From Streptomyces sp. Alt3 (GTDB taxonomy: Bacteria > Actinomycetota > Actinomycetes > Streptomycetales > Streptomycetaceae), in assembly GCF_030719215.1 (NCBI RefSeq), contig NZ_CP120983.1, positions 6,944,001 through 7,008,000 on the forward strand: a stretch of DNA of 64,000 nucleotides. Direction: 5' to 3'. Positions 44,877 through 62,278 of the stretch are shown here, in pieces. A program made the position numbers and the translations under genes. The notes beneath the pieces were generated by a model. The model did not search any database, was not told the DNA's origin, and saw only the letters and a program-made list of their open reading frames with translations. The stretch's first letter is position 1, and each line of letters opens with the position of its first letter.

Positions 44877-46151
44877 TCATCGGGGTGTCCGTTCGCACCG
44901 GCGCACGACCACGGCGCTGTTGAAGCCGCCGTGCCCACGCGCCAGCACCAGTGCCGCGCCGCCGGCCATGGGTCGGGGCCGGCCGGTCACGAGATCGATC
45001 CGGTACGCCGCCGGAAGACGGCCGACGTCGGCGGTCGGGGGGATCAGCCCGTCGCGGACGGCGAGCAGCGCCGCCGCGAGGTCGAGTGCGGAGGCGCCGG
45101 CCCCCGGGCGTCCGGTGCGGGAGGTGATCGCGGTGACCGGGACGGCGTCCGGCCCGAAGACCTCGGTGATCGCCGCGGCCTCCTGCGCGTCGAGCTCGGG
45201 AACAGCCGCTCCCTCGGCGAAGACCGCGCCGATGTCCGCCGGTTCGATCCCCGCGTCGGCCAGTGCCGCCCTCGCGGCCCGGGCGGGGCCGGCGGTGCGC
45301 CCCGAGCCCGGGGGAGGGTCGAAGCAGGCCGCGTAACCCGCCACCTCGCCGTAAGGGCGGACACCGCCCCGGGCGTGAGCCGCGGCCCCGTCCTCCAGCA
45401 TCAGCAGCGCGCCGCCCTCCGCGACGACATGGCCGGCGGCGCGCTCCCCGAAGGGCAGGCAGGCGTCCTCGGCGCTGTCGGCCGTACTCAGCCGGCCGCC
45501 GGTCAGTTCCGCCACATGCCCCCAGGGGCACAGCGCCGACTCCATCGCCCCGGTGAGCACCGCCGGGGTGCCCTTGCGCAGCATGCGGCGCGCGTGGCCG
45601 ACCGCGTCCAGTCCGCCGGACTGGCCGGTGACCAGGACGCCGCTGGGACCGCGCAGGCCGTGCCGGATGGAGATCTGGCCGGTGTTGACGGCGTAGAACC
45701 AGGCGAACGACTGGTAGGCGCTGACGTACAGGGGGCCCTTCGCCCACAGGTTCTCGAGCTCCCGCTGACCGAACTCGAACCCTCCGGCGGCGTTGGCGGT
45801 GACCACTCCGATCCCGTACTCCGGCGCCTCGGCCGGGTCCAGGCCCGAGTCCCTCAGCACCTCGGCGGCGGAGACCAGCGCGAGTTGTGTGACGCGGTCG
45901 GTCTGGGGCAACAGGCGGCCGGGCAGGTCCTCGCCGGGATCGTGGGCGATCTCGCCGGCCAGCGTGCTCGGGTAACCGGAGGCGTCGAAGCGGGTGATCG
46001 GACCGATGCCGCCGCGTCCCTCCAGAAGGCCCTGCCAGAATTCCTCGGTGCCGTTTCCGTTGGCCGCGCGTACGTCGAGGCCGGTGACGAGGGCCGTGTC
46101 CCGCCGGGTTCCGGGGGCCGTGGACACGGACATGGGCGCGTGGACGGTCAT
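44877..46151 (-). CDS. Type II PKS chain-length factor (KS-beta)
   Basis: A 424-residue ketosynthase homologue in which the active-site Cys is replaced by Gln177 ([12 protein letters not shown]), the hallmark of KS-beta/CLF. It pairs with KS-alpha and fixes chain length. The start overlaps the KS-alpha stop by ATGA, as in most PKS II operons. Chain length cannot be read reliably from the sequence. Three in-phase TTA searches in this gene found none. Confidence 0.95.
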
Positions 46152-47419
46152 CTGCGTGTCCCTTCGGGCCGGGTGAGCACCATGGCGCTCTGGAAGCCGC
46201 CGAAACCGCTGCCCACCGTGAGGACGGCGTCCAGTCGCTGCTCCCTGGCGGTGACCGGCACGTAGTCCAGCGGGCACTCGGGATCCGGTTCGTGGAGATT
46301 GGCGGTGGGAGGCACGACTCCGTGCTCCAGGGCGAGGGCACACGCGGCGATCTCTATGGCCCCGATCGCCCCGAGCGAGTGGCCGATCATCGACTTGATG
46401 GAGCTGACAGGAACGCCCCGGGCGTGCTCGCCGAGGGCACGCAGGAAGGCAGCCGACTCGTGGCGGTCGTTCTGCAGGGTGCCGGAGCCGTGCGCGTTGA
46501 CGTAGTCGACCGCGGTCGGGTCCAGCCGGGCCTCGTCGAGCGCCCGGGTGATCGCCTCCGCCATCTCCCGGCCGTCCGGACGCAGACCCGTCATGTGGTA
46601 GGCGTTGCCGCGCGAGGCGTGACCGCCGATCTCTGCATAGACGTGCGCGCCCCGGGCCTCGGCGTGCGACCACTCCTCCAGCACCAGCACGGCGGCGCCC
46701 TCGCCCAGGACGAAGCCGTCCCGGGTGCGGTCGAACGGCCGCGAGGCGGTGGCCGGGTCGTCGTTGCGCGCGGAGGTCGCCCTGATGGCGTCGAAGGAGG
46801 CGACGGTGATCGGGGAGATCGGCGCGTCGGTTCCGCCGGTGAGCATGACGTCGGCGGTGCCCTCGCGGATGATCTCGCAGGCGTGTCCCACGGCGTCCAG
46901 CCCGGACGTGCAGCCGGCCGAGATCACCGCGACGGGGCCGAGGGCGTCCGCCGCCCACGCCACCTCCCGGGCCAGACTGCTGGGGACGAGGTGGTCCACC
47001 AGTTGCGGCACGGCGTGGCGATGGTCCACGAGCCACTCGCGGCCGCCGTCGCTGACGACGGCGTACTCGTTCTCCAGGCTCGTCGTGCAGCCGACGGCGG
47101 TGCCCAGGGACACTCCGGTCCGCTCGGGCACCGAGGTGGTGCCGGACGCGAGACCGGCGTCCGCGAGCGCCTCCCGGGCGCAGGCCACGGCGAACTGGGC
47201 CGCGCGGTCCAGTCTGCGGACCTCGCGCGGGGAGAAGCCGGCGGCCAGTGGGTCGAAGGCGCACTGTGCGGCGATGCGCGAACGGTAGGGCGTCGCGTCG
47301 AAGGCCGTCAGGGGGCCCGTCGCGGTCCGGCCGGAAGTGATCAGTGACCAGAACTCCTTCGTCCCGTTTCCGCCGGGCGCGACCACGCCGATTCCGGTGA
47401 CGGCGACCCTGCGGTTCAC
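46148..47419 (-). CDS. Type II PKS ketosynthase alpha
   Basis: A 423-residue beta-ketoacyl synthase. The catalytic residues are Cys170 ([14 protein letters not shown]), His310 ([13 protein letters not shown]), Lys342 ([10 protein letters not shown]) and His347. It catalyses the iterative decarboxylative condensations of malonyl-ACP. The gene heads the minus-strand operon KS-alpha, CLF, ACP, NmrA-like, DUF6059-like, and starts at GTG 47419. The 346-base gap upstream separates it from a divergent MarR gene and holds inverted and direct repeats that are candidate regulator sites. Confidence 0.97.
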
Positions 47420-47765
47420 CTCGGCACGCCCACGGAATGGCCGGATCTATCCCACGCGAGAACAGGCGGTTTCCAGTGATCCGGTAGGTTTCGCGTGGTT
47501 TCCGCCCTGTGCTGGGCGGCCCCCGTCGCGCGCTGTGCGCTGTCCATCTGATCGACCCTTTCCCGTACTCGGCCGGTGGCGTGACGCATCCCCCGTGGAG
47601 GGACGCGGATCATCCTCCGCGCCGCCGCTGGAGGGGGGCTCGGGAACCGGTGGAGCCGGGAAACCGCCCCGGAGTGCGGGCCGCGTATCATCGCCGGGGG
47701 CGTGCGGTCCGTCGTGTCGTGAGCCCGCCCGTATGCCGCCCGCAACCCGCGAAGGTCACCTCTGC
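47420..47765. promoter_or_regulatory. Divergent control region between KS-alpha and the MarR gene
   Basis: 346 bases. On the KS side there are two nested inverted repeats: CCACGCGA (47452-47459) with TCGCGTGG (47491-47498), and CCGGATC (47441-47447) with GATCCGG (47478-47484). Three copies of GGTTTC occur at 47468, 47487 and 47497. On the MarR side a -10-like TATCAT lies at 47686-47691. These are candidate sites for the MarR regulator. Confidence 0.5.
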
Positions 47766-48249: not shown

Positions 48250-48279
48250 TTCCAGCGGGGCTCCAGCCGCCTTCCAGAC
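48250..48279 (+). promoter_or_regulatory. Candidate SARP binding site before the NTF2-like gene
   Basis: Three direct repeats, TCCAGCG (48251), TCCAGCC (48262) and TCCAGAC (48273), lie exactly 11 bp apart. A hexamer CACGCT begins 8 bases after the last repeat, where SARP promoters have their -10. The ATG of the NTF2-like gene is 44 bases downstream. Confidence 0.7.
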
Positions 48280-48322
48280 CGGCCGAGCACGCTGGTGGCC
48301 CCTACAGCGCGAAGGAGGTCCG

Positions 48323-48778
48323 ATGCCGCACACCGGCACGGCACCGCTCGACCCGGCCAGGCCCGGCACCGACCGGCTCCACGGCGAGATCACCCACTTC
48401 TACGCACGGCAGATGCAGGCCCTGGACGACGGCAGGACCGACGACTGGGCGCGGACGTTCACCGAGGACGGCGTCTTCCTCCTGCACGGCGGCCACGACC
48501 GTGCGGAGGGCCGCCCCGCGCTCGCCGCCAGCAGCGCGAAGGCCCGTGCCGCACTGGCCGAGCAGGGTGTCACGCACCGGCACTGGCTCGGCATGCTGGC
48601 GGTGGAACCCAGGCCCGACGGAAGCGTCGCGGCCCGCTGCTACGCCCTGGTCATCGCCACCGGGCTCGGCGGAACCCCGGCCCTGCACCGCAGCACCGTG
48701 TGCGAGGACGTGCTGGTGCGCGACGGTGACACCTGGCTGGTCGAGCACCGCCAGGTCAGCCGGGACGACCTGGCCTGA
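48323..48778 (+). CDS. NTF2/SnoaL-like fold protein
   Basis: A 151-residue small alpha+beta barrel protein (THFYARQMQALDDGRTDDWA, then FTEDGVFLLHGG), matching the SnoaL/NTF2-like superfamily. In aromatic polyketide clusters such proteins act as cyclases, dehydratases or hydroxylase-like proteins, so it may act on the polyketide, but the reaction cannot be told. A perfect Shine-Dalgarno (GAAGGAGGT, 48310-48318) sets ATG 48323. A candidate SARP site precedes it. Confidence 0.82.
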   Translation: MPHTGTAPLDPARPGTDRLHGEITHFYARQMQALDDGRTDDWARTFTEDGVFLLHGGHDRAEGRPALAASSAKARAALAEQGVTHRHWLGMLAVEPRPDGSVAARCYALVIATGLGGTPALHRSTVCEDVLVRDGDTWLVEHRQVSRDDLA

Positions 48779-48838: not shown

Positions 48839-49645
48839 TCAGCCGGCCGTCTCGTACGGCATCCCTCCCGCCAGCATCTGAGGCTGCGGCGAGGCCGACG
48901 AGAGTATGGCGCGCTGGAGCTGCTGGAGGAACCAGGCCGGCTCCATTCCGAGTTCCTCGGCCAGGGCGCGTCGTAGCCGCTGGTACACGTCCAGTGCGCA
49001 CGAGCGGCGCCCCGACCGCCACAGGGCCCTCATGTACTGCGCGTGAAGGTTCTCGTGGAAGCGGTGATGGGCGGTCAGTGTGGCCAGCCCGTCGAGGAGT
49101 TCCTGGTGCCGGCCGAGCCTCATCTCGGCGTCGATACAGAGCCCCAGGGTGGTCAGCCGCAGCTCCTCCAGCCGTGTCACGTGGGCGGTGACGGGTTGGC
49201 CCGTGTCCACATCCGCGAGCACCTGTCCGCGGTAGAGGTCGAGGGCCTGCGAGAGGAGCACCACGCCCGTCTCGTCGTCCCCCCGGCTGATGGCCTCGCG
49301 CCCCTGTTTGGCGAGCCGGCCGAAGCGGTGCAGGTCGACGGCGTCGTCGGGAATGCGCAGCATGTATCCGGGACCCGCCGTCACCAGCAGTTCCCCCGCG
49401 GAGGGTGCGGCGGCCTGAAGCAGTTTGCGGAGCGTCAGTATGTACGTCTGGAGCGTCGTCCTGGCGCTGGCCGGTGGACGGTTGCCCCACAACTCCTCCA
49501 CCAGAGCGGAGACGGGGACGATCTGGTTGCGGTAGATGAGGAGAAGCGCCAGCACCTTCTTCGGTTTCGGTGCGCTGGGAACGCAGGCAATGTCGCCGAA
49601 TCGTAAATCCAGGATCCCCAGTATGACGACGGAAATGTCCATCAT
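48839..49645 (-). CDS. SARP-family pathway-specific activator
   Basis: A 268-residue Streptomyces antibiotic regulatory protein. The OmpR-like DNA-binding domain occupies about residues 10-100 (KPKKVLALLLIYRNQIVPVS, ARTTLQTYILTLRKLL) and the bacterial transcriptional activation domain follows (YRGQVLADVDTGQPV, ALAEELGMEPAWFLQQL). It should recruit RNA polymerase to promoters with 11-bp heptamer repeats, which are found in this cluster. Codon 14 is TTA (minus-strand triplet at 49604-49606), so translation should need the bldA leucyl-tRNA. ATG 49645 follows a purine tract, GGGGGGGAA. Confidence 0.95.
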   Translation of the reverse strand: MMDISVVILGILDLRFGDIACVPSAPKPKKVLALLLIYRNQIVPVSALVEELWGNRPPASARTTLQTYILTLRKLLQAAAPSAGELLVTAGPGYMLRIPDDAVDLHRFGRLAKQGREAISRGDDETGVVLLSQALDLYRGQVLADVDTGQPVTAHVTRLEELRLTTLGLCIDAEMRLGRHQELLDGLATLTAHHRFHENLHAQYMRALWRSGRRSCALDVYQRLRRALAEELGMEPAWFLQQLQRAILSSASPQPQMLAGGMPYETAG

Positions 49646-49779
49646 TTCCCCCCCAAGATCTGCATTGCCGTGGCCATGACGGACTCCCCCGAGTACCGGT
49701 GCGACCTGGCCGCTTTGTGTGTAGTGCCTGTGATGCACCCGAACGCTACCCAGACGGGCCGTGGGTACTGTCGAATGGA

Positions 49780-49798
49780 CGCGTCGAGGCTCGACGCG
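49780..49798. promoter_or_regulatory. Palindrome upstream of the SARP gene
   Basis: Perfect 9-bp arms (CGCGTCGAG and CTCGACGCG) around a single G, 135 bases before the SARP start. The length and symmetry suit a dimeric regulator controlling the activator gene. Confidence 0.6.
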
Positions 49799-49882
49799 AA
49801 TTGTCCTGAAGGCGCTTGCACTGTTCATGAGGTGCTGCTAGGTGGTGGCCGGCGGGTCTCCTGGAGCATCCCGCGGGCGGTC

Positions 49883-49911
49883 CGCCCTTCCCGGCCGTGG
49901 CGGGAAGGGCG
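49883..49911 (-). terminator. Terminator after the GMC oxidoreductase gene
   Basis: A perfect 11-bp stem (CGCCCTTCCCG with CGGGAAGGGCG) and a 7-base loop, starting 13 bases downstream of the GMC stop. It separates the OMT-GMC operon from the SARP promoter. Confidence 0.85.
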
Positions 49912-49923
49912 CGGGGCCGGGCG

Positions 49924-51480
49924 TCAGTTCAGCATGCGGTCCAGTGCCTTGTGCACGCAGCGGTCGGCGAGAGCGGTGACGGTCAGGGCGGGCGGAACCG
50001 TCGCCATCGTGCCGGGTATGAGCGAGCTGTCGATGACGTGCAGGTTGTCGTAGCCGTGCAGTCGGCCGTCCAGCCTGCACGCCTTGCCGAGGACCGCTCC
50101 GCCGAGCGTGTGCGAGGTGGTGTCGGCGTTCACGCGCAGGGTCGAGGTACCGGGGTTGGCGGCGTTGAGACGGTCCACTGTGGCCGTCACCGCCTGGGTG
50201 GCGCGTACGGCCGAGGCACCCGTGGCCGGCCAGGTCAGAGAGACCCCGCCGGTCGCCGCGTCGTAACTGAAGTACCCGTCCGCGGCGCACGTGGTCATGG
50301 CCAGGGCGCCGAGCGCTCCGGTCCCGTCCGCGGGCGGCACCGGCCACGGGAAGTTGATCATCGTGACGGGCTCGTACGGGTTGTCGAGGTCCTGGGCGAC
50401 GATGCCGGACGGCCCTCCCTGCGTGGAGTTGTTCCAGGGCATGCCCACCCGCACCGTCTGCCGGTCGCTGTTGGTTCCCCATCCCTTGCCGACCGAGGCG
50501 CGCAGCGCGGGCAGGCTGCCGCGTCCCCGCGCGGCCACCAGCAGCCGGCTGGTCCCCAGCGAACCCGCGGCGAAGAACACGCGCTTCGCGCTGTAGTCGG
50601 GGCGGGCGACCACGGCCCCCGTGTCGTCGATGCGTTCGCACCGCACCACGTAGCGGTCGCCCGATGGCACCACGTCCACCACACGCGTCAGCGTCTCCAC
50701 CGACACCCGGCCGGTCGCCTCCGCGGCGGCCAGAATGGTCCGGTCGACACTGCGCTTGGCCCCGCTGTTGGCACCCCAGATGGAACGGGCGATGATCAGC
50801 GACGCCTCCCGGGTGCCCGCCTGCTCCTCCCGTACGGCCTGCCAGTCGACGGCCATGTCCGCACGGAACGGGGCCAGGCCCGCCGCCGCGGCCTCGGCGC
50901 TGAACGAGCGGGCTGCGGTGTAGTGCGACGAGACGTAGACGTCGTCCGGCATCGGGGCCGGACCGATCAGGGTGCGGGCCCGGGCGTACCAGCGCTCGCT
51001 CATCTCGTCGAAGTCGATGTCGGTGCCGAACGCCCGGTTGAAGGCCGCCTCGGAGGGCTTCAGCATCACCGCGTTGTTGACCAGGGACCCACCGCCGACA
51101 CCCGCGCCGGCGAGAGCGATGACCCCGTCGGCGCGGAAGGCCTCCAGCACACCGGGGTACACGTCGAGCTGCTGGGGGACGAACGGGCTCCAGGAGCTGA
51201 GCCAGGACGCCCGGCCGTCGGGCGCCGCGGGGGTGGCGAAGGTACCGCCCGCGCTGGTGACCGGCCAGCGCCTGCCACGTTCGAGCACCACCGAGTGCAG
51301 GCCCGCCTGGGCGAACCGGAGGGCGGCGACGCTGCCCGCGTAACCACTGCCGATGATGAGGGTCTCGACCGGCTCCGCGGCCGAGGCCACGGCGGACCGC
51401 AGCGGGAGCGCCCCGAGCGCCGTGCCTGCCGCGACGCCGGTGAGGAACCGTCGACGCGAGAGCGACTTTCTGCCTGACAT
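49924..51480 (-). CDS. Tat-exported GMC-type FAD oxidoreductase (cholesterol-oxidase-like)
   Basis: A 518-residue flavoprotein. The twin-arginine signal is LSRRRFLTGVAAGTALGALP and the FAD motif is LIIGSGYAGSVAALRFAQAG at about residues 39-58. The C terminus GKACRLDGRLHGYDNLHVID with SSLIPGTMATVPPALTVTAL matches the cholesterol-oxidase branch of GMC proteins. It would oxidise an alcohol outside the cell. An exported oxidase in an aromatic polyketide cluster suggests a last maturation step after export. AGAGGAG precedes ATG 51480. It is second in the minus-strand operon after the O-methyltransferase. Confidence 0.9.
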   Translation of the reverse strand: MSGRKSLSRRRFLTGVAAGTALGALPLRSAVASAAEPVETLIIGSGYAGSVAALRFAQAGLHSVVLERGRRWPVTSAGGTFATPAAPDGRASWLSSWSPFVPQQLDVYPGVLEAFRADGVIALAGAGVGGGSLVNNAVMLKPSEAAFNRAFGTDIDFDEMSERWYARARTLIGPAPMPDDVYVSSHYTAARSFSAEAAAAGLAPFRADMAVDWQAVREEQAGTREASLIIARSIWGANSGAKRSVDRTILAAAEATGRVSVETLTRVVDVVPSGDRYVVRCERIDDTGAVVARPDYSAKRVFFAAGSLGTSRLLVAARGRGSLPALRASVGKGWGTNSDRQTVRVGMPWNNSTQGGPSGIVAQDLDNPYEPVTMINFPWPVPPADGTGALGALAMTTCAADGYFSYDAATGGVSLTWPATGASAVRATQAVTATVDRLNAANPGTSTLRVNADTTSHTLGGAVLGKACRLDGRLHGYDNLHVIDSSLIPGTMATVPPALTVTALADRCVHKALDRMLN

Positions 51481-51615: not shown

Positions 51616-52290
51616 TCAGCGCTTGCGGGCGATGGTCAGACCGTCGGCGAGCGGCAGCATGACCACGTCGACCCGGGGGTCGGCCGCGAGCGCCGGGTTG
51701 AACTCGCGCAGGGCGGCGGCGTTTCCGGTCACCGGCTCGTCGCCGAGCACACGGCCGCCGTACAGGACGTTGTCGAGGACGATCAGGCCCCCCGGCCGGG
51801 TCCTGACCACCAACTCCTCGAAGTACGCCGCGTATCCGGTCTTGTCCGCGTCCACGAACGAGAAGTCGATGTCCTCCTCGACGGGCAGGGACCGCAGGGT
51901 CTCCAGGGCCGGGCCGAGACGCAGCTCGATCAGACCGGCCAGCCCGGCGGACTCCCACCCGTCCCGGGCTATGCGTGTCCACTCCTCGCTGGTGTCGCAG
52001 CACAGCAGGTGCCCGCCGGCCGGCAGCGCCCGGGCGATGGAGAGCGACGAGTAGCCGGTGAAGGTGCCCACCTCGACCGCCCGCCGTGCCCCGACCGTCT
52101 TGGCCAGCAGCGTGATGAGAGCGCCCTGTTCGGGTGCGATCCGCATGCCGGCCTTGTCCCCGGTCTCCTTCTCGGTGCGCGCCACCAGCTCGTGGTGGGC
52201 GGGCAGCGGTGCGATGCCGCTCGCGACCACGTAGTCGACGACCTCCTGGGTGGCCTGCACCCGCATCGGCTGGTCGGCAGGAAATTCCAT
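51616..52290 (-). CDS. SAM-dependent O-methyltransferase (CCoAOMT-like)
   Basis: A 224-residue class-I methyltransferase. The SAM motif is AVEVGTFTGYSSLSIARALP and the metal-binding FVDADKTGYAAYFEELVVR with LDNVLYGGRVLG are present, as in catechol and caffeoyl-CoA O-methyltransferases. It probably methylates a phenolic hydroxyl of the polyketide, using a divalent metal. ATG 52290 has AGAGGAG upstream. It starts an operon with the GMC oxidase and has a candidate SARP site 69-97 bases upstream of its start. Confidence 0.93.
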   Translation of the reverse strand: MEFPADQPMRVQATQEVVDYVVASGIAPLPAHHELVARTEKETGDKAGMRIAPEQGALITLLAKTVGARRAVEVGTFTGYSSLSIARALPAGGHLLCCDTSEEWTRIARDGWESAGLAGLIELRLGPALETLRSLPVEEDIDFSFVDADKTGYAAYFEELVVRTRPGGLIVLDNVLYGGRVLGDEPVTGNAAALREFNPALAADPRVDVVMLPLADGLTIARKR

Positions 52291-52358
52291 CGTCACTCCT
52301 CTTTCAGGGCCCCCACGGGCCCCGGCAGTCGCCAAGACCTGGACAACGTAGAAGTGGC

Positions 52359-52387
52359 GGCTGGAGACGCACTTGAGGGCCAGTCCA
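52359..52387 (-). promoter_or_regulatory. Candidate SARP binding site for the O-methyltransferase operon
   Basis: On the minus strand TGGACTG, TCAAGTG and TCCAGCC occur at exactly 11-bp spacing (plus coordinates 52381-52387, 52370-52376 and 52359-52365). A -10-like TACGTT (52345-52350) lies exactly 8 bases downstream, the canonical SARP promoter layout. Confidence 0.75.
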
Positions 52388-52413
52388 CGGGCCGGTGGAG
52401 ACCTCCAGGACGC

Positions 52414-52442
52414 TCCAGCCGTGTTCGAGCCGGACTCGACCG
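52414..52442 (+). promoter_or_regulatory. Candidate SARP binding site for the ketoreductase operon
   Basis: TCCAGCC (52414), TCGAGCC (52425) and TCGACCG (52436) are direct repeats at exactly 11-bp spacing. A hexamer AAGCCT begins 8 bases after the last one. Together with the minus-strand site 27 bases away, this is a divergent SARP-controlled promoter. Confidence 0.75.
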
Positions 52443-52535
52443 ATCCCGGCAAGCCTCTCTGGCGACGCCGGACACGGGCCACGCACCCGGCCCGTGTCCC
52501 GAGACGCCGCACAGCGGCCAGGAACGAGGAGTGAG

Positions 52536-53339
52536 ATGCCTGCCAGCGCCCCCAGCACCCCGGCGGAACCGCGTACGGCCCTGATCACGGGCGCCACCAG
52601 TGGAATCGGACTCGCGGTGGCCCGCGACCTGGCCGCCGCCGGACTTCGTGTGTTCCTGTGCGCCCGCACCGCGGACGACGTGGCCGCGACGGTCAAGGAA
52701 CTGCGCGACCTCGGTCACGAGGCGGACGGAGCGGCCTGCGACGTCCGCTCCCGCGCGGAGGTGGCCGAGCTGGTCGCCGCCGCGGTCGCGGCCTTCGGAG
52801 CGATCGACGTCCTGGTCAACAACGCGGGCCGCAACGGCGGCGGAGCAACCGCTCAGCTCCCCGACGAGATCTGGTACGACGTCGTCGACACGAACCTCAA
52901 CAGCGTCTTCCTGATGACCCGGGAGGTGCTCGCGGAGGGCGGCATGCTGGCACGGCCACGCGGACGGATCATCAACATCGCGTCCACCGGGGGCAAGCAG
53001 GGGGTCGTCCTGGCCGCCCCGTACTCCGCGTCCAAGGCCGGCGTGATCGGCATGACCAAGGCCGTCGGGCTGGAGCTCGCCTCCTCGGGGACCACCGTCA
53101 ACGCGGTCTGTCCCGGCTACGTGGAGACGCCCATGGCCGAGCGCGTGCGCAGGGCGTACGCGGAGGCGTGGGACACCGGCGAGGAACAGGTCCGCGAGCG
53201 TTTCGAGGCCAAGATCCCGCTCGGCCGCTACACCACGCCCGAGGAGGTGGCGGCCATGGTCGGCTACCTCGTCTCGCCGGCCGCGGACGCCGTCACCGCG
53301 CAGGCGCTCAACGTCTGCGGCGGACTCGGCTCCTACTGA
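52536..53339 (+). CDS. ActIII-like polyketide ketoreductase
   Basis: A 267-residue SDR. The NADPH motif is ALITGATSGIGLAVARDLAA, followed by VNNAGRNGGGATAQLPDEIW and the catalytic tetrad Asn120, Ser150, Tyr163 and Lys167 (APYSASKAG). Sequence and length match the family that reduces C-9 of the poly-beta-ketone in type II systems. It is first in a plus-strand series of genes with only short gaps or overlaps. ATG 52536 has GAGGAG upstream. Confidence 0.94.
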   Translation: MPASAPSTPAEPRTALITGATSGIGLAVARDLAAAGLRVFLCARTADDVAATVKELRDLGHEADGAACDVRSRAEVAELVAAAVAAFGAIDVLVNNAGRNGGGATAQLPDEIWYDVVDTNLNSVFLMTREVLAEGGMLARPRGRIINIASTGGKQGVVLAAPYSASKAGVIGMTKAVGLELASSGTTVNAVCPGYVETPMAERVRRAYAEAWDTGEEQVRERFEAKIPLGRYTTPEEVAAMVGYLVSPAADAVTAQALNVCGGLGSY

Positions 53340-53374: not shown

Positions 53375-54418
53375 GTGTCCCGGACCAACTCCCGTGCCAC
53401 CACCCCGCCCACCGGCCCGGACGTCGTCGGCAGCCCCTCCAGGCGCACACCGGGCGAACGCCCCGGTGACCCAGCGCGCGTCGACGTGGCTCACACCGTC
53501 ACCGTGCCGGCCGCGCCGGACGTCGTCTTCGCCCTGCTCGCGGACGTCGAGAGGTGGCCGTTGATCTTCCCACCCACCGTGCACGCCCGGTTCCTGGAGC
53601 GCGCTCCGGACGAAGGCGGCCCGGAACGCCTCCAGTTGTGGGCCACTGCCAACGGCGGGGTACGCACCTGGACCTCCCGCCGACTCGTCGACCCCGTACG
53701 CCGGCGCATCTCCTTCGGGCAGGACCGCCCGCAGAGCCCCGTCGCCGCCATGGGCGGGGAGTGGATCGTCGGCCCGGCGGACGCCGGCAGCGAGGTGGTC
53801 CTCACCCACTCCTACGCGGCCGTCGGGGACGACGCCGAGACGCTCGGCTGGCTGGAGAAGGCGGTCGACGGCAACAGCCGTGCCGAACTGGCCGCCCTCG
53901 CCGGGGCGGCACAGGAGAAGGAGGCCGGCCTGGAGACGGCCTTCACCTTCCGTGACAGCCTGCACATCGAGAGCGGCGCCGCAGAGGTCCACGCCTTCCT
54001 GAACGACGCGGAACGCTGGGAGCAGCGCCTGCCGCACGTGGCGCGGGTACGTCTGACCGAGGACCTGCCCGGTGTGCAGATCCTGGAGATGGACACCCGG
54101 ACCGCGGACGGGTCGTCCCACACGACGCGGTCCGTCCGGATCTGCCAGGCGCCTCACAGCATCCACTACAAGCAGCTCATCACTCCGGCCCTGCTCCGGG
54201 TGCACACCGGCAGCTGGCTCCTGACGGAGGACGACCGGGGCGTCACCGTCGTCGCGGAGCACACCGTCGTCCTGGAGACGGCCGCCATCGCCCAGGTGCT
54301 CGGGCCGGACGCCGACGTGCAAAAGGCCCGGGCCTTCGTCCGGGACGCCCTGGGCCGCAACAGTTCTGCCACGCTGCGGCAGGCCAAGGCCTTCGCCGAG
54401 GGGACGTCCGGTGCCTGA
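53375..54418 (+). CDS. Two-domain polyketide aromatase/cyclase (ActVII-like)
   Basis: A 347-residue protein with two START/Bet v1-like (SRPBCC) domains. Domain one begins DVAHTVTVPAAPDVVFALLA with VERWPLIFPPTVHARFLERA; domain two begins ESGAAEVHAFLNDAERWEQR with LPHVARVRLTEDLPGVQILE. Didomain aromatase/cyclases close and aromatise the first ring after C-9 reduction, so this fits the ketoreductase gene directly upstream. The GTG start at 53375 follows GAAGGTG. It overlaps the ligase gene by 8 bases. Confidence 0.93.
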   Translation: MSRTNSRATTPPTGPDVVGSPSRRTPGERPGDPARVDVAHTVTVPAAPDVVFALLADVERWPLIFPPTVHARFLERAPDEGGPERLQLWATANGGVRTWTSRRLVDPVRRRISFGQDRPQSPVAAMGGEWIVGPADAGSEVVLTHSYAAVGDDAETLGWLEKAVDGNSRAELAALAGAAQEKEAGLETAFTFRDSLHIESGAAEVHAFLNDAERWEQRLPHVARVRLTEDLPGVQILEMDTRTADGSSHTTRSVRICQAPHSIHYKQLITPALLRVHTGSWLLTEDDRGVTVVAEHTVVLETAAIAQVLGPDADVQKARAFVRDALGRNSSATLRQAKAFAEGTSGA

Positions 54419-56261
54419 CCTCCTGGACGGGCTCCCCGCCCGCGCCGACCTGCTGCTGCACGCCGCCGCGCAGCGCCACGGAGACCGGCCCGCGCTCGTC
54501 CTCGGCAGCCGTAAGGTCACCTACGCGGAGCTCGACGCGGCGGTGGACCGGTGCGCCGCCGTCCTGCGGGAACGGTTCGGCGCCGGGGGAGCGGTCGTGG
54601 CGATCGGCGCCGACCTGCACCCCGACGTGGTGATCGCCTACCACGGGGCCCTGCGCAGCGGGAACCAGGCACTGATGGTGATCCCACTGCTGCGCGAACA
54701 GCAACTGCAGTACGTGCTCGAGGCGTCCGGGGCGCGGGCCGCCCTGGTGGGAGCGGCGCTCCACGAACGTCTGAGCTGGGTGCGGCACGGGCTGCCCGGG
54801 CTGGAGCTCGTCGCCCTGCTGGGGGAGGAACCCGGGGACGCGGACCCGGGGCGGCCGCCCAGCCTCGCCCAGCTGCTGGAGGCCGCCGTGCCCGGGGCGC
54901 CCGAGTGGCACGCCGATCCCGGGGCCCCGGCCGCACTGCACTTCACCAGCGGCACCACGGGCCTGCCGAAGGCCGTCGTGCTCAGCCACCTCAACGTGAC
55001 GGTCAACGCCGTACAGACCGCGAGGGCACACGGGCTGGAGGCCGGCTCCGTCACCCTCGTGCACTTCCCCAGCTACCACCCCATGCACATGAACTCCGCG
55101 CTGGCCGCCGGGGCGACCCAGGTGCTGGTGCCGGAAGCCGACCCCGCCCACGCGATGGAACGGGCCCGTACGTGCGGCGCCGGGTACATCTACTCGCTGC
55201 CCGCCCGGCTGGCCCAGCTGGCCGCCCATCCCCGGCTCGCCGGGATGCGCCTGCCGGACGCCGTGATGATCGCCTCCGGAGGTTCGGCCCTTGCACCGGC
55301 CCTCGCCGGCACCCTCTCCCGGCACTTCGGTGTCCCCGTGGTCCAGGGGTACGGGCTCGCGGAGGCATCCCCGCTGACCCACTTCGACCGGCCGGGCGAG
55401 CACCTGCCCGGATCGGTGGGCAGGCCGGTCGAGGGGACCGAACACCGTGCGGTCTCGCTGGAGGACGGCTCCGTGCTGCCGCCCGGAGAACACGGGGAGA
55501 TCCAGGTCAGGGGACCGCAGGTGATGCGCGGATACCTCGATCCGGCGCACGGTCCGGCCGTCGACGCCGACGGCTGGCTGGCCACCGGCGACGTCGGCCG
55601 CATCGACGGGGACGGCCGGCTGCATCTCACCGACCGCATCAAGGACGTCTTCAAGTGCGACAACTGGCTCGTCGCGCCGAGCGAGATCGAGGCGCTGCTG
55701 GCCGAGGACCCCACGGTGGCCGACAGCGTCGTCCTCGACAGGCCGGACCCGGTGTCCGGCGCGGTCGCCCACGCGCTCCTGGTCCTCGCCGCCCCGGACT
55801 CCCCGGGGGAGGCGGAAGAGGCTCTCCGCCGGCTCAACGCCCGCCTGCCCTACTACAAGCAGGTCCGCAGCCACGACGTCGTCGCGCGGATTCCCCGCAC
55901 CCCCAACGGCAAGATCCCGCGGCGCGAACTGCGGGCGTCCTTCCACGCACGACTCGACGGAGGTTCCCCGATGGTGATCCTGATCAACGAGTTCATCCTG
56001 ACCTCGGCACCCGAGGAGTTCGAGAAGGTCTTCGAGGCCAGCTCGGTGTACATGCGCGAGCAGCCCGGGTTCATCGACCACACCCTGGTCCGCTCCATGA
56101 CCAACCCGAACACCTACATCAACATCGCGCGCTGGGAGGACGCCGCCGCGCACATCCAGGTCGTCCAGTCCGACGGTTTCCAGGACCACATCCGGCAACT
56201 CGCCGGTGTCGCCAGGGCGACCCCTCAGCTGCACACCGTGGTGTCGCACGTTGAGCGCTGA
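54411..56261 (+). CDS. AMP-forming acyl ligase fused to an ABM monooxygenase domain
   Basis: A 616-residue fusion. Residues 1 to about 518 form an adenylating ligase with HFTSGTTGLPKAVVLSH, YGLAEASPLTH, GDVGRIDGDGRLHLTDRIKD and the final PRTPNGKIPRR carrying the acyl-adenylation Lys. Residues 521-616 form an antibiotic-biosynthesis monooxygenase domain (ILINEFILTSAPEEFEKVFE). An internal ATG at 55971 has a strong site GGAGG, so the ABM domain may also be made alone. The ligase could activate an unusual starter acid. GTG 54411 lies 8 bases inside the aromatase gene. Confidence 0.88.
   Translation: MPDLLDGLPARADLLLHAAAQRHGDRPALVLGSRKVTYAELDAAVDRCAAVLRERFGAGGAVVAIGADLHPDVVIAYHGALRSGNQALMVIPLLREQQLQYVLEASGARAALVGAALHERLSWVRHGLPGLELVALLGEEPGDADPGRPPSLAQLLEAAVPGAPEWHADPGAPAALHFTSGTTGLPKAVVLSHLNVTVNAVQTARAHGLEAGSVTLVHFPSYHPMHMNSALAAGATQVLVPEADPAHAMERARTCGAGYIYSLPARLAQLAAHPRLAGMRLPDAVMIASGGSALAPALAGTLSRHFGVPVVQGYGLAEASPLTHFDRPGEHLPGSVGRPVEGTEHRAVSLEDGSVLPPGEHGEIQVRGPQVMRGYLDPAHGPAVDADGWLATGDVGRIDGDGRLHLTDRIKDVFKCDNWLVAPSEIEALLAEDPTVADSVVLDRPDPVSGAVAHALLVLAAPDSPGEAEEALRRLNARLPYYKQVRSHDVVARIPRTPNGKIPRRELRASFHARLDGGSPMVILINEFILTSAPEEFEKVFEASSVYMREQPGFIDHTLVRSMTNPNTYINIARWEDAAAHIQVVQSDGFQDHIRQLAGVARATPQLHTVVSHVER
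55956..55973 (+). promoter_or_regulatory. Internal ribosome-binding site and start codon for the ABM domain
   Basis: ACGGAGGT ends 7 bases before ATG 55971 within the ligase-ABM frame, enabling a separate 96-residue ABM protein. Confidence 0.6.
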
Positions 56262-57815: not shown

Positions 57816-59068
57816 ATGGACATCACCACCGACATCTGTGTGGTCGGGGCCGGCCCGGCGGGTCTGACACTGGCACTGCTGATGCTGCGTTCGGGCGCCC
57901 GGGTCACGGTGCTGGACCGCACCCGCTCCTTCGAGCGCGAGTACCGCGGCGAGATCCTTCAGCCCGGAGCCATGACACTGCTCGACCACCTCGGGGTGCT
58001 CGACGGGGCACGCGCCCGCGGCGGGTACGAGCTCGGCCGGTTCCAGCTGGTCGAGAACGAGCGCCTGCTGATGGACATCGACTACGGCACCCTGCCCCCG
58101 CCCTACGGCTTCCTGCTGAGCCTGCCCCAACGGCACCTGCTGACCGAGCTGTTCGAGGCCTGCTCCCGGTACCCGGAGTTCACCTACCTGGAGGGCTGCG
58201 GCATCAGGGAGCTGGTGCGGGAAGGGGGAGCCGTCACCGGCGTGGTCTGCGGCCGGGGTGACGACCGCCGCCGGATCACGGCCCCGGTCACCGTCGCCGC
58301 GGACGGACGCTACTCCAAGACCCGCCGGCTGGCGGGCATCGAGCAGCACCGGCTGGACACATTCGCCCACGACATCCTCTGGTTCAGGGTCCCGGCCGGG
58401 GGCAGGACGGACCGCTCGGTGCGGGTGCACCGCACCGGAGGGACCCCGGTGCTCATCTACGACTCGTACCCCGACTGCGTACAGATCGGTTGGACCCTGC
58501 CGCACAACGGGTACCGGCAGCTGGCCGAGGAGGGAGTGGAGACGCTGCGCTCGCGGATCGCGCGCGCGGTGCCCGACTACGCCGACCAGGTCCTCGACCA
58601 GGTGAAGACGCTCAGCGACCTGACACTGCTCGACGTCTTCTCCGGCTACGCGGACCGGTGGGCGGACGACGGGCTGGTCCTGGTCGGGGACAGCGCGCAC
58701 ACCCACAGTCCGATCGGGGCGCAGGGCATCAACCTCGCCCTGCAGGACGCCGCGCTCCTGCACCCGGTCCTGGTGGGCGCCCTGGACAGCGGTGACTTCG
58801 GTGAGTCCACGCTCTCGCGCTGGGTGCCCGAGCGCAGGAAGGACATCGACGCGGTCTTCACCCTTCAGGCGAGACAGAGCAAGGCGATGCTGGGGGGCGG
58901 AGCCGGCTGGCCGGCGCGGTCCGGCCCCTGGCGGCGCGCGCCCTCGCGCACACCCCGCTCTACGGGAAGATCCTGCGCGCCATCGCGTTCGGCGCCCGGC
59001 CGGTCTCCGTGCGCTCGGATCTGTTCGGTGAGGCGGAACCACTCCGCGGAGAGGCGGCCGGAGCATGA
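57816..59068 (+). CDS. FAD-dependent aromatic polyketide monooxygenase, frameshifted
   Basis: A UbiH/PgaE-type flavin hydroxylase. The FAD motifs are DICVVGAGPAGLTLALLMLR and VLVGDSAHTHSPIGAQGINL, and WFRVPAGGRTDRSVRVHRTG lies between. The frame breaks in a run of six G at 58892-58897: adding one G converts the tail to RSRLAGAVRPLAARALAHTP and onward to EPLRGEAAGA with a stop at 59066-59068. This stop overlaps the ATG of the cyclase (ATGA), so the corrected frame is surely the true one; the product is then about 417 residues. ATG 57816 follows GAGGAGG. Confidence 0.85.
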
Positions 59069-62104: not shown

Positions 62105-62158
62105 GGACATCCTCTCCGGGCCCGTACCCACGGGCGCCCCGCCGATCGTCCGGCCCGC

Positions 62159-62187
62159 TTCTCGACGGCCGATCGAGGACCGCTGGA
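62159..62187 (-). promoter_or_regulatory. Candidate SARP binding site of the KSIII/AT divergent promoter
   Basis: On the minus strand TCCAGCG, TCGATCG and TCGAGAA lie exactly 11 bp apart (plus coordinates 62181-62187, 62170-62176 and 62159-62165), and a hexamer GACGAT follows 8 bases downstream. On the plus strand the same stretch reads TCGACGG (62162), TCGAGGA (62173) and TGGAGGA (62184), also at 11 bp, so one activator array may serve both genes. Confidence 0.7.
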
Positions 62188-62278
62188 GGACCTCCATCCG
62201 CGGTCGAGCGTGCCTGTAGCGGGTCCGGCGAGGATCGGCCCCGCGTACCGCTCGGCGCGGTACGCGGGAGGGGAAACG

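Follow-up and report, generated by a model that had tools for sequence, protein, structure and literature searches.

Does the 245-bp gap between two divergently oriented biosynthetic genes of Streptomyces sp. Alt3 act as a promoter pair, and which regulator would control it? The gap lies within the window, the whole 64-kb stretch of DNA analysed here, which belongs to an 8.65-Mb genome in 5 contigs. Its local GC content exceeds 70%.

Two heptamer arrays between divergent biosynthetic genes

On one side of the gap, an O-methyltransferase gene (51616–52290, minus strand; Pfam family Methyltransf_3) is followed downstream by a gene for a GMC-family oxidoreductase (49924–51480, minus strand). On the other side, the SDR-type ketoreductase gene of the type II PKS (52536–53339, plus strand) is followed by an aromatase/cyclase gene with two stretches of the polyketide-cyclase family (53375–54418, plus strand) and, in the same direction, by a gene for an AMP-dependent ligase with a C-terminal ABM domain (54411–56261, plus strand), in which ligase and ABM monooxygenase-type domain are fused in a single frame. 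The first-pass annotation had placed the gap between an O-methyltransferase/GMC pair and a ketoreductase unit, with a SARP encoded at 48839–49645, and our gene assignments agree. The neighbourhood further contains KS-alpha (46148–47419, minus strand, with a GTG start at 47419), a second ketosynthase with ketoacyl-synt domains in the same unit (44877–46151, minus strand; KS-beta by position), an ACP gene in that unit, a SnoaL-like cyclase gene (48323–48778, plus strand), a MarR gene (ahead of 48239), a KAS III gene and an acyltransferase gene. The two ketosynthases, the ACP, the SnoaL-like cyclase, KAS III and the acyltransferase thus identify a type II polyketide cluster. Literature on the combination of type II polyketide, GMC, O-methyltransferase and SARP yielded no identification of its product. 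A related-locus search returned 2 Streptomyces loci (L059 and L060) and 78 loci from other bacteria and archaea. Apart from the window and one relative, G072, no O-methyltransferase homologue above 58% appeared among the matches listed.

Arrays were scored as three heptamers at an 11-bp step against three copies of TCGAGC, taken as the general SARP consensus (maximum 18), and a hexamer was counted when nAnnnT stood 8 bp beyond the last heptamer. A second score, in bits, used a matrix derived from 46 sites in other clusters; this second test is not fully independent, because its sites were picked with the same grammar.

The heptamers that the first-pass annotation had read on both strands are all in place. 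The minus-strand array (52359–52387; score 12/18, 18.5 bits) consists of TGGACTG (52381–52387), TCAAGTG (52370–52376) and TCCAGCC (52359–52365) at a step of exactly 11 bp. The last of these lies nearest the −10 region, and the −10-like hexamer TACGTT (52345–52350, minus strand) follows exactly 8 bp past it, also as annotated. None of the other five arrays in the cluster is as weak, and the first heptamer of this one, TGGACTG, is a poor fit with 3 of 6 consensus bases. The plus-strand array (52414–52442; score 16/18, 29.4 bits) comprises TCCAGCC (52414–52420), TCGAGCC (52425–52431) and TCGACCG (52436–52442), again at exactly 11 bp. Its −10-like hexamer, AAGCCT (52451–52456, plus strand), stands 8 bp from the last heptamer, just beyond the end of the region first annotated, and had been overlooked; AAGCCT is a poor candidate −10. 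On both strands, the array would by this geometry overlap the −35 region. A search of the gap for sigma-70-like promoter pairs found none, with 0.0 expected.

Three further candidates in and next to the arrays were rejected. TCCAGGA at 52404 would be a fourth plus-strand repeat at a step of 10 rather than 11, and it is altered in G072. A minus-strand triplet of score 15 at 52411–52439 has no hexamer at gap 8 and is an echo of the plus array, because TCGA is its own reverse complement. An inverted repeat in the predicted ketoreductase leader (52461–52508) was considered as a regulatory RNA hairpin; its z value is −2.67 here and −0.61 in G072, where bases of one arm are altered.

Distribution and rarity of the array grammar

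Four other arrays with the same grammar, also overlooked in the first annotation, lie elsewhere in the cluster. One, with GAGGAT, stands ahead of the KS-alpha, second ketosynthase and ACP genes (47612–47654, heptamers 47626–47654, minus strand; score 14, 22.8 bits), and another, with CACGCT, ahead of the SnoaL-like cyclase gene (48251–48293, heptamers 48251–48279, plus strand; score 14, 28.3 bits). The remaining two form a second divergent SARP-type pair at 62145–62235, with the hexamer at gap 8 in both: an array with GACGAT ahead of KAS III, whose start is read as 62110 (62145–62187, heptamers 62159–62187, minus strand; score 15, 25.6 bits), and an array with GAGGAT ahead of the acyltransferase, whose start is read as 62279 (62193–62235, heptamers 62193–62221, plus strand; score 14, 20.1 bits). 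From hexamer to start codon there are 54 bases for the O-methyltransferase, 79 for the ketoreductase, 29 for SnoaL, 34 for KAS III, 43 for the acyltransferase and 192 for KS-alpha. At gap 8, nAnnnT is present in every one of the six arrays, and each of the other gaps from 2 to 15 gives 0 or 1 of 6. When the biosynthetic genes in the window are split by direction into six putative units, each unit has an array. No array of at least 12 with a hexamer stands ahead of the SARP gene or the MarR gene.

The grammar is rare outside the cluster. The plus triplet is the highest-scoring 11-bp triplet of the whole window, and none of 5,000 dinucleotide shuffles of the gap reaches its score of 16; arrays of at least 12 with a hexamer on both strands likewise occur in 0 of 5,000. 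The window contains five sites of at least 13 with a hexamer, all inside the cluster, and the sixth array scores 12; positions 1–43500, outside the cluster, hold three sites at 12 with a hexamer and none higher. When triplets of at least 14 are chosen regardless of the hexamer, seven are found, five of them with nAnnnT at gap 8. The other two are a triplet at 58548–58576, taken to be a chance match and rejected as a further array for want of a hexamer at gap 8, and the echo of the plus array on the reverse strand. A 780-kb background from the same genome (39 stretches, excluding L207, a stretch with a second ketoreductase homologue in which no array was found) contains 13 sites of at least 12 with a hexamer and one of at least 13; the corresponding counts in 398 kb from other genomes (20 stretches) are 10 and 3. 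By the matrix, the six arrays score 18.5–29.4 bits and the remainder of the window at most 10.9, and the 780-kb background yields two matches of at least 15 bits.

Conservation in a relative and at other ketoreductase loci

Among 295 genomes drawn from the genus, the whole gap was found in one other only, G072 (94%); 26 others gave short matches to the gap only, and no further intact gap was found in 150 relatives, many of which are the same genomes. The window and G072 are 94% alike over 40692–64000, and all six arrays are present in G072 with scores of 12 to 16. Within the gap, 0 of 46 counted motif bases are changed versus 13 of 199 others, a conservation signal that is not strong for these 245 bp taken by themselves. 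When five regions are pooled, changes affect 3 of 138 motif bases and 78 of 1,030 others (one-sided Fisher p = 0.0086), a comparison of one close genome pair in roughly drawn regions, one of which (upstream of the SARP gene) has no array and another of which enters the MarR gene by about 85 bases. The stretch upstream of the SARP gene (49646–49923) has 17 changes in 278 positions, few of them in the first ~200 bp, and is probably a regulatory region of that gene.

We then compared ketoreductase loci of other Streptomyces. Matches were present in 216 genomes, and the best-scoring of these gave 30 loci including the window and G072, thus 28 others. An array directed at the ketoreductase, with strand checked by translation, is present in 17 of these 28 (19 of 30 with the window and G072), and a same-length control inside the ketoreductase gene has an array in 1 of 30 loci. 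Arrays of at least 12 on both strands occur in 12 of the 28 (14 of 30) and arrays of at least 13 on both strands in 8 of the 28 (8 of 30 in all); the 30 loci include related clusters, eight of which share a 37-bp distance between array centres and the same neighbours. Six loci with a KS-like gene upstream on the same strand (L146, L153–L155, L157 and L168) have no ketoreductase-directed array, as expected because the ketoreductase is an internal gene there.

The first-pass annotation had likened the gap to known SARP sites, a comparison that holds up: its 11-bp step and 8-bp distance agree with the rule described for SARP promoters in PMC10936776 and stand out in type II PKS loci of other genomes. 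In 18 of the 28 other best-scoring loci, covering 358 kb of type II PKS sequence, we found 46 arrays of at least 13 with a hexamer, distributed over 16 of the 18 stretches. These 46 are obtained at gap 8 and period 11; other gaps, and other periods among 8 to 15, give 0 to 5.

Upstream of the ketoreductase, the 12 other both-strand loci have KS-alpha on the opposite strand (8 loci, with a ligase-ABM-like stretch in between), a SnoaL-like gene (3 loci) or no match (1 locus). Loci such as L141–L145, L147 and L148 resemble the window in having both-strand arrays ahead of the ketoreductase but lack an O-methyltransferase partner, which, of the 30 best-scoring loci, only the window and G072 contain. 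Some loci of the genus (L171–L174, L177, L180 and L181) combine, within 20 kb, relatives of four proteins of the window: KS-alpha, the SARP (45–47%), KAS III (51–56%) and the acyltransferase (59–62%); KS-alpha sits across the ketoreductase promoter there, unlike in the window. Because ketoreductase-directed arrays occur at 17 of the 28 other loci, and both-strand arrays at 12, the gap is predicted to be a standard divergent SARP promoter in an ordinary master-switch arrangement. Among the loci compared, its novelty is limited to the partner genes, O-methyltransferase and GMC oxidoreductase.

The SARP and a predicted master switch

The candidate regulator is a small SARP of 268 aa (48839–49645, minus strand), which matches EmbR and AfsR chains in phmmer searches. 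It has the classical small-SARP layout, an N-terminal OmpR-type winged helix (Trans_reg_C, 25–96) and a BTAD domain (103–248), with nothing further and no other Pfam family. A longer reading from a start at 49828 was rejected, since the extra stretch 49646–49828 has a GC3 of 0.59 and looks non-coding. Codon 14 is TTA (49604–49606, minus strand), also in G072. TTA codons confer dependence on bldA, and this codon suggests that the SARP is under bldA control.

Known SARP systems provide a frame for how the arrays may work. Promoters of the classical small-SARP type have two or three direct heptamer repeats that step by 11 bp (or by 22), and they are weak unless the activator is present. SARP promoters are reported to share a distance of 8 bp between the last repeat and the −10 element, and AfsR binds an 11-bp double repeat as a side-by-side dimer and, at a poor promoter, engages RNA polymerase as well as sigma region 4 (PMC10936776). 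The afsS promoter, with 11-bp repeats overlapping a poor −35, resembles the layout predicted here; it differs in that the afs box has two repeats (PMC10936776), compared with three per strand in the gap. Binding of PimR needs at least two heptamers (PMC5930380), and by analogy three heptamers would take two or three protomers. Sites of ActII-ORF4, DnrI, VlmI and FdmR1 are closest in form, with three heptameric repeats ahead of biosynthetic genes; the general rule given for SARP sites is overlap with the −35 region, and the VlmI sites lie ahead of vlmJ and of vlmA–vlmH (PMC10972967). The present sites differ from these in their partner genes, O-methyltransferase/GMC and ketoreductase, and in being predicted sites. 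SanG (sanO–sanN) and PolR (polB–polC) also have sites between two biosynthetic genes, but those sites have two heptamers with the consensus CGGCAAG, and their regulators are SARP-LAL proteins (PMC10972967, PMC5930380). In AfsR, T88 and R92 touch bases (PMC10936776). In our alignment the window SARP keeps T88 and has Thr in place of the base-contacting R92, so its base preference may differ from that of AfsR.

Taken as a whole, the best explanation, and one that we hold with considerable confidence, is a divergent promoter pair with cluster-wide activation by the SARP encoded at 48839–49645. Each half of the gap has three heptamers one helical turn apart and a putative −10 element 8 bp downstream, and the heptamers would stand in for a good −35. 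The SARP, encoded 2.7 kb away, most likely binds them cooperatively and would hold RNA polymerase on otherwise poor promoters. The same protein would act at the four other promoters and thereby turn on every biosynthetic unit in the window, as delimited by gene direction; neither the SARP gene itself nor the MarR gene has such an array. Nothing in the data suggests a different type of mechanism.

The neighbourhood and the shared conservation of SARP and arrays point to this SARP as the binder. The arrays could instead be true SARP sites whose main binder is another SARP of the genome, AfsR-like or from another cluster, alone or in competition. The genome has 11 BTAD matches, nine with E < 1e-33 (the cluster's SARP among these nine), and heptamers are similar among SARPs. 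Against such a binder, same-grammar arrays are concentrated in a cluster with its own SARP gene, and G072 keeps both arrays and the SARP; we consider it unlikely.

A second reading, somewhat harder to sustain, is that the plus array alone works and that the minus triplet is decayed or a chance occurrence, with the O-methyltransferase driven otherwise. A score of 12 is common when the hexamer is disregarded: 62 triplets in the window, on both strands, reach it, so the minus heptamers alone prove little. With the hexamer, 39 of 5,000 gap shuffles reach 12, 5 reach 14 and none reaches 16. By the matrix, the top match of the 780-kb background (19.4 bits) exceeds the minus array, whose 18.5 bits rank near the tenth percentile among the 46 matrix sites. 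However, every heptamer base of the minus array and its TACGTT are identical in G072 while the spacers are altered, the cluster's other biosynthetic units have arrays, and the both-strand arrangement recurs at the other ketoreductase loci at both thresholds.

It is tempting to speculate that one SARP assembly bridges both arrays and switches the two operons on as a unit rather than as two independent promoters. The array centres are 55 bp (5 × 11) apart, a distance that would suit bridging on one helix face. Across the 14 both-strand loci, however, the centre distances are 37 bp in eight loci, 55 bp in two, and 61, 72, 25 and 100 bp in one each; they share no common phase, and phasing therefore gives bridging no support, which leaves it improbable. 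Least credible of all are chance repeats in the gap or sites of a different regulator, for example the cluster's MarR protein: GC above 70% makes short matches frequent, but the pattern is rare in 780 kb of background and specific to gap 8 and period 11, and its repeats are direct, not inverted as in the usual MarR operator.

If the divergent promoter pair and its cluster-wide activation by the SARP hold, expression of one small SARP should switch on the cluster's units together and offer a direct route to the product. The rule of three heptamers at 11 bp followed by nAnnnT 8 bp on also picks out predicted SARP regulons from raw Streptomyces sequence: at a score of at least 13 it finds 46 sites in the 358 kb of type II PKS sequence, whereas the 780-kb background from the window's own genome yields one and the 398 kb drawn from other genomes three.
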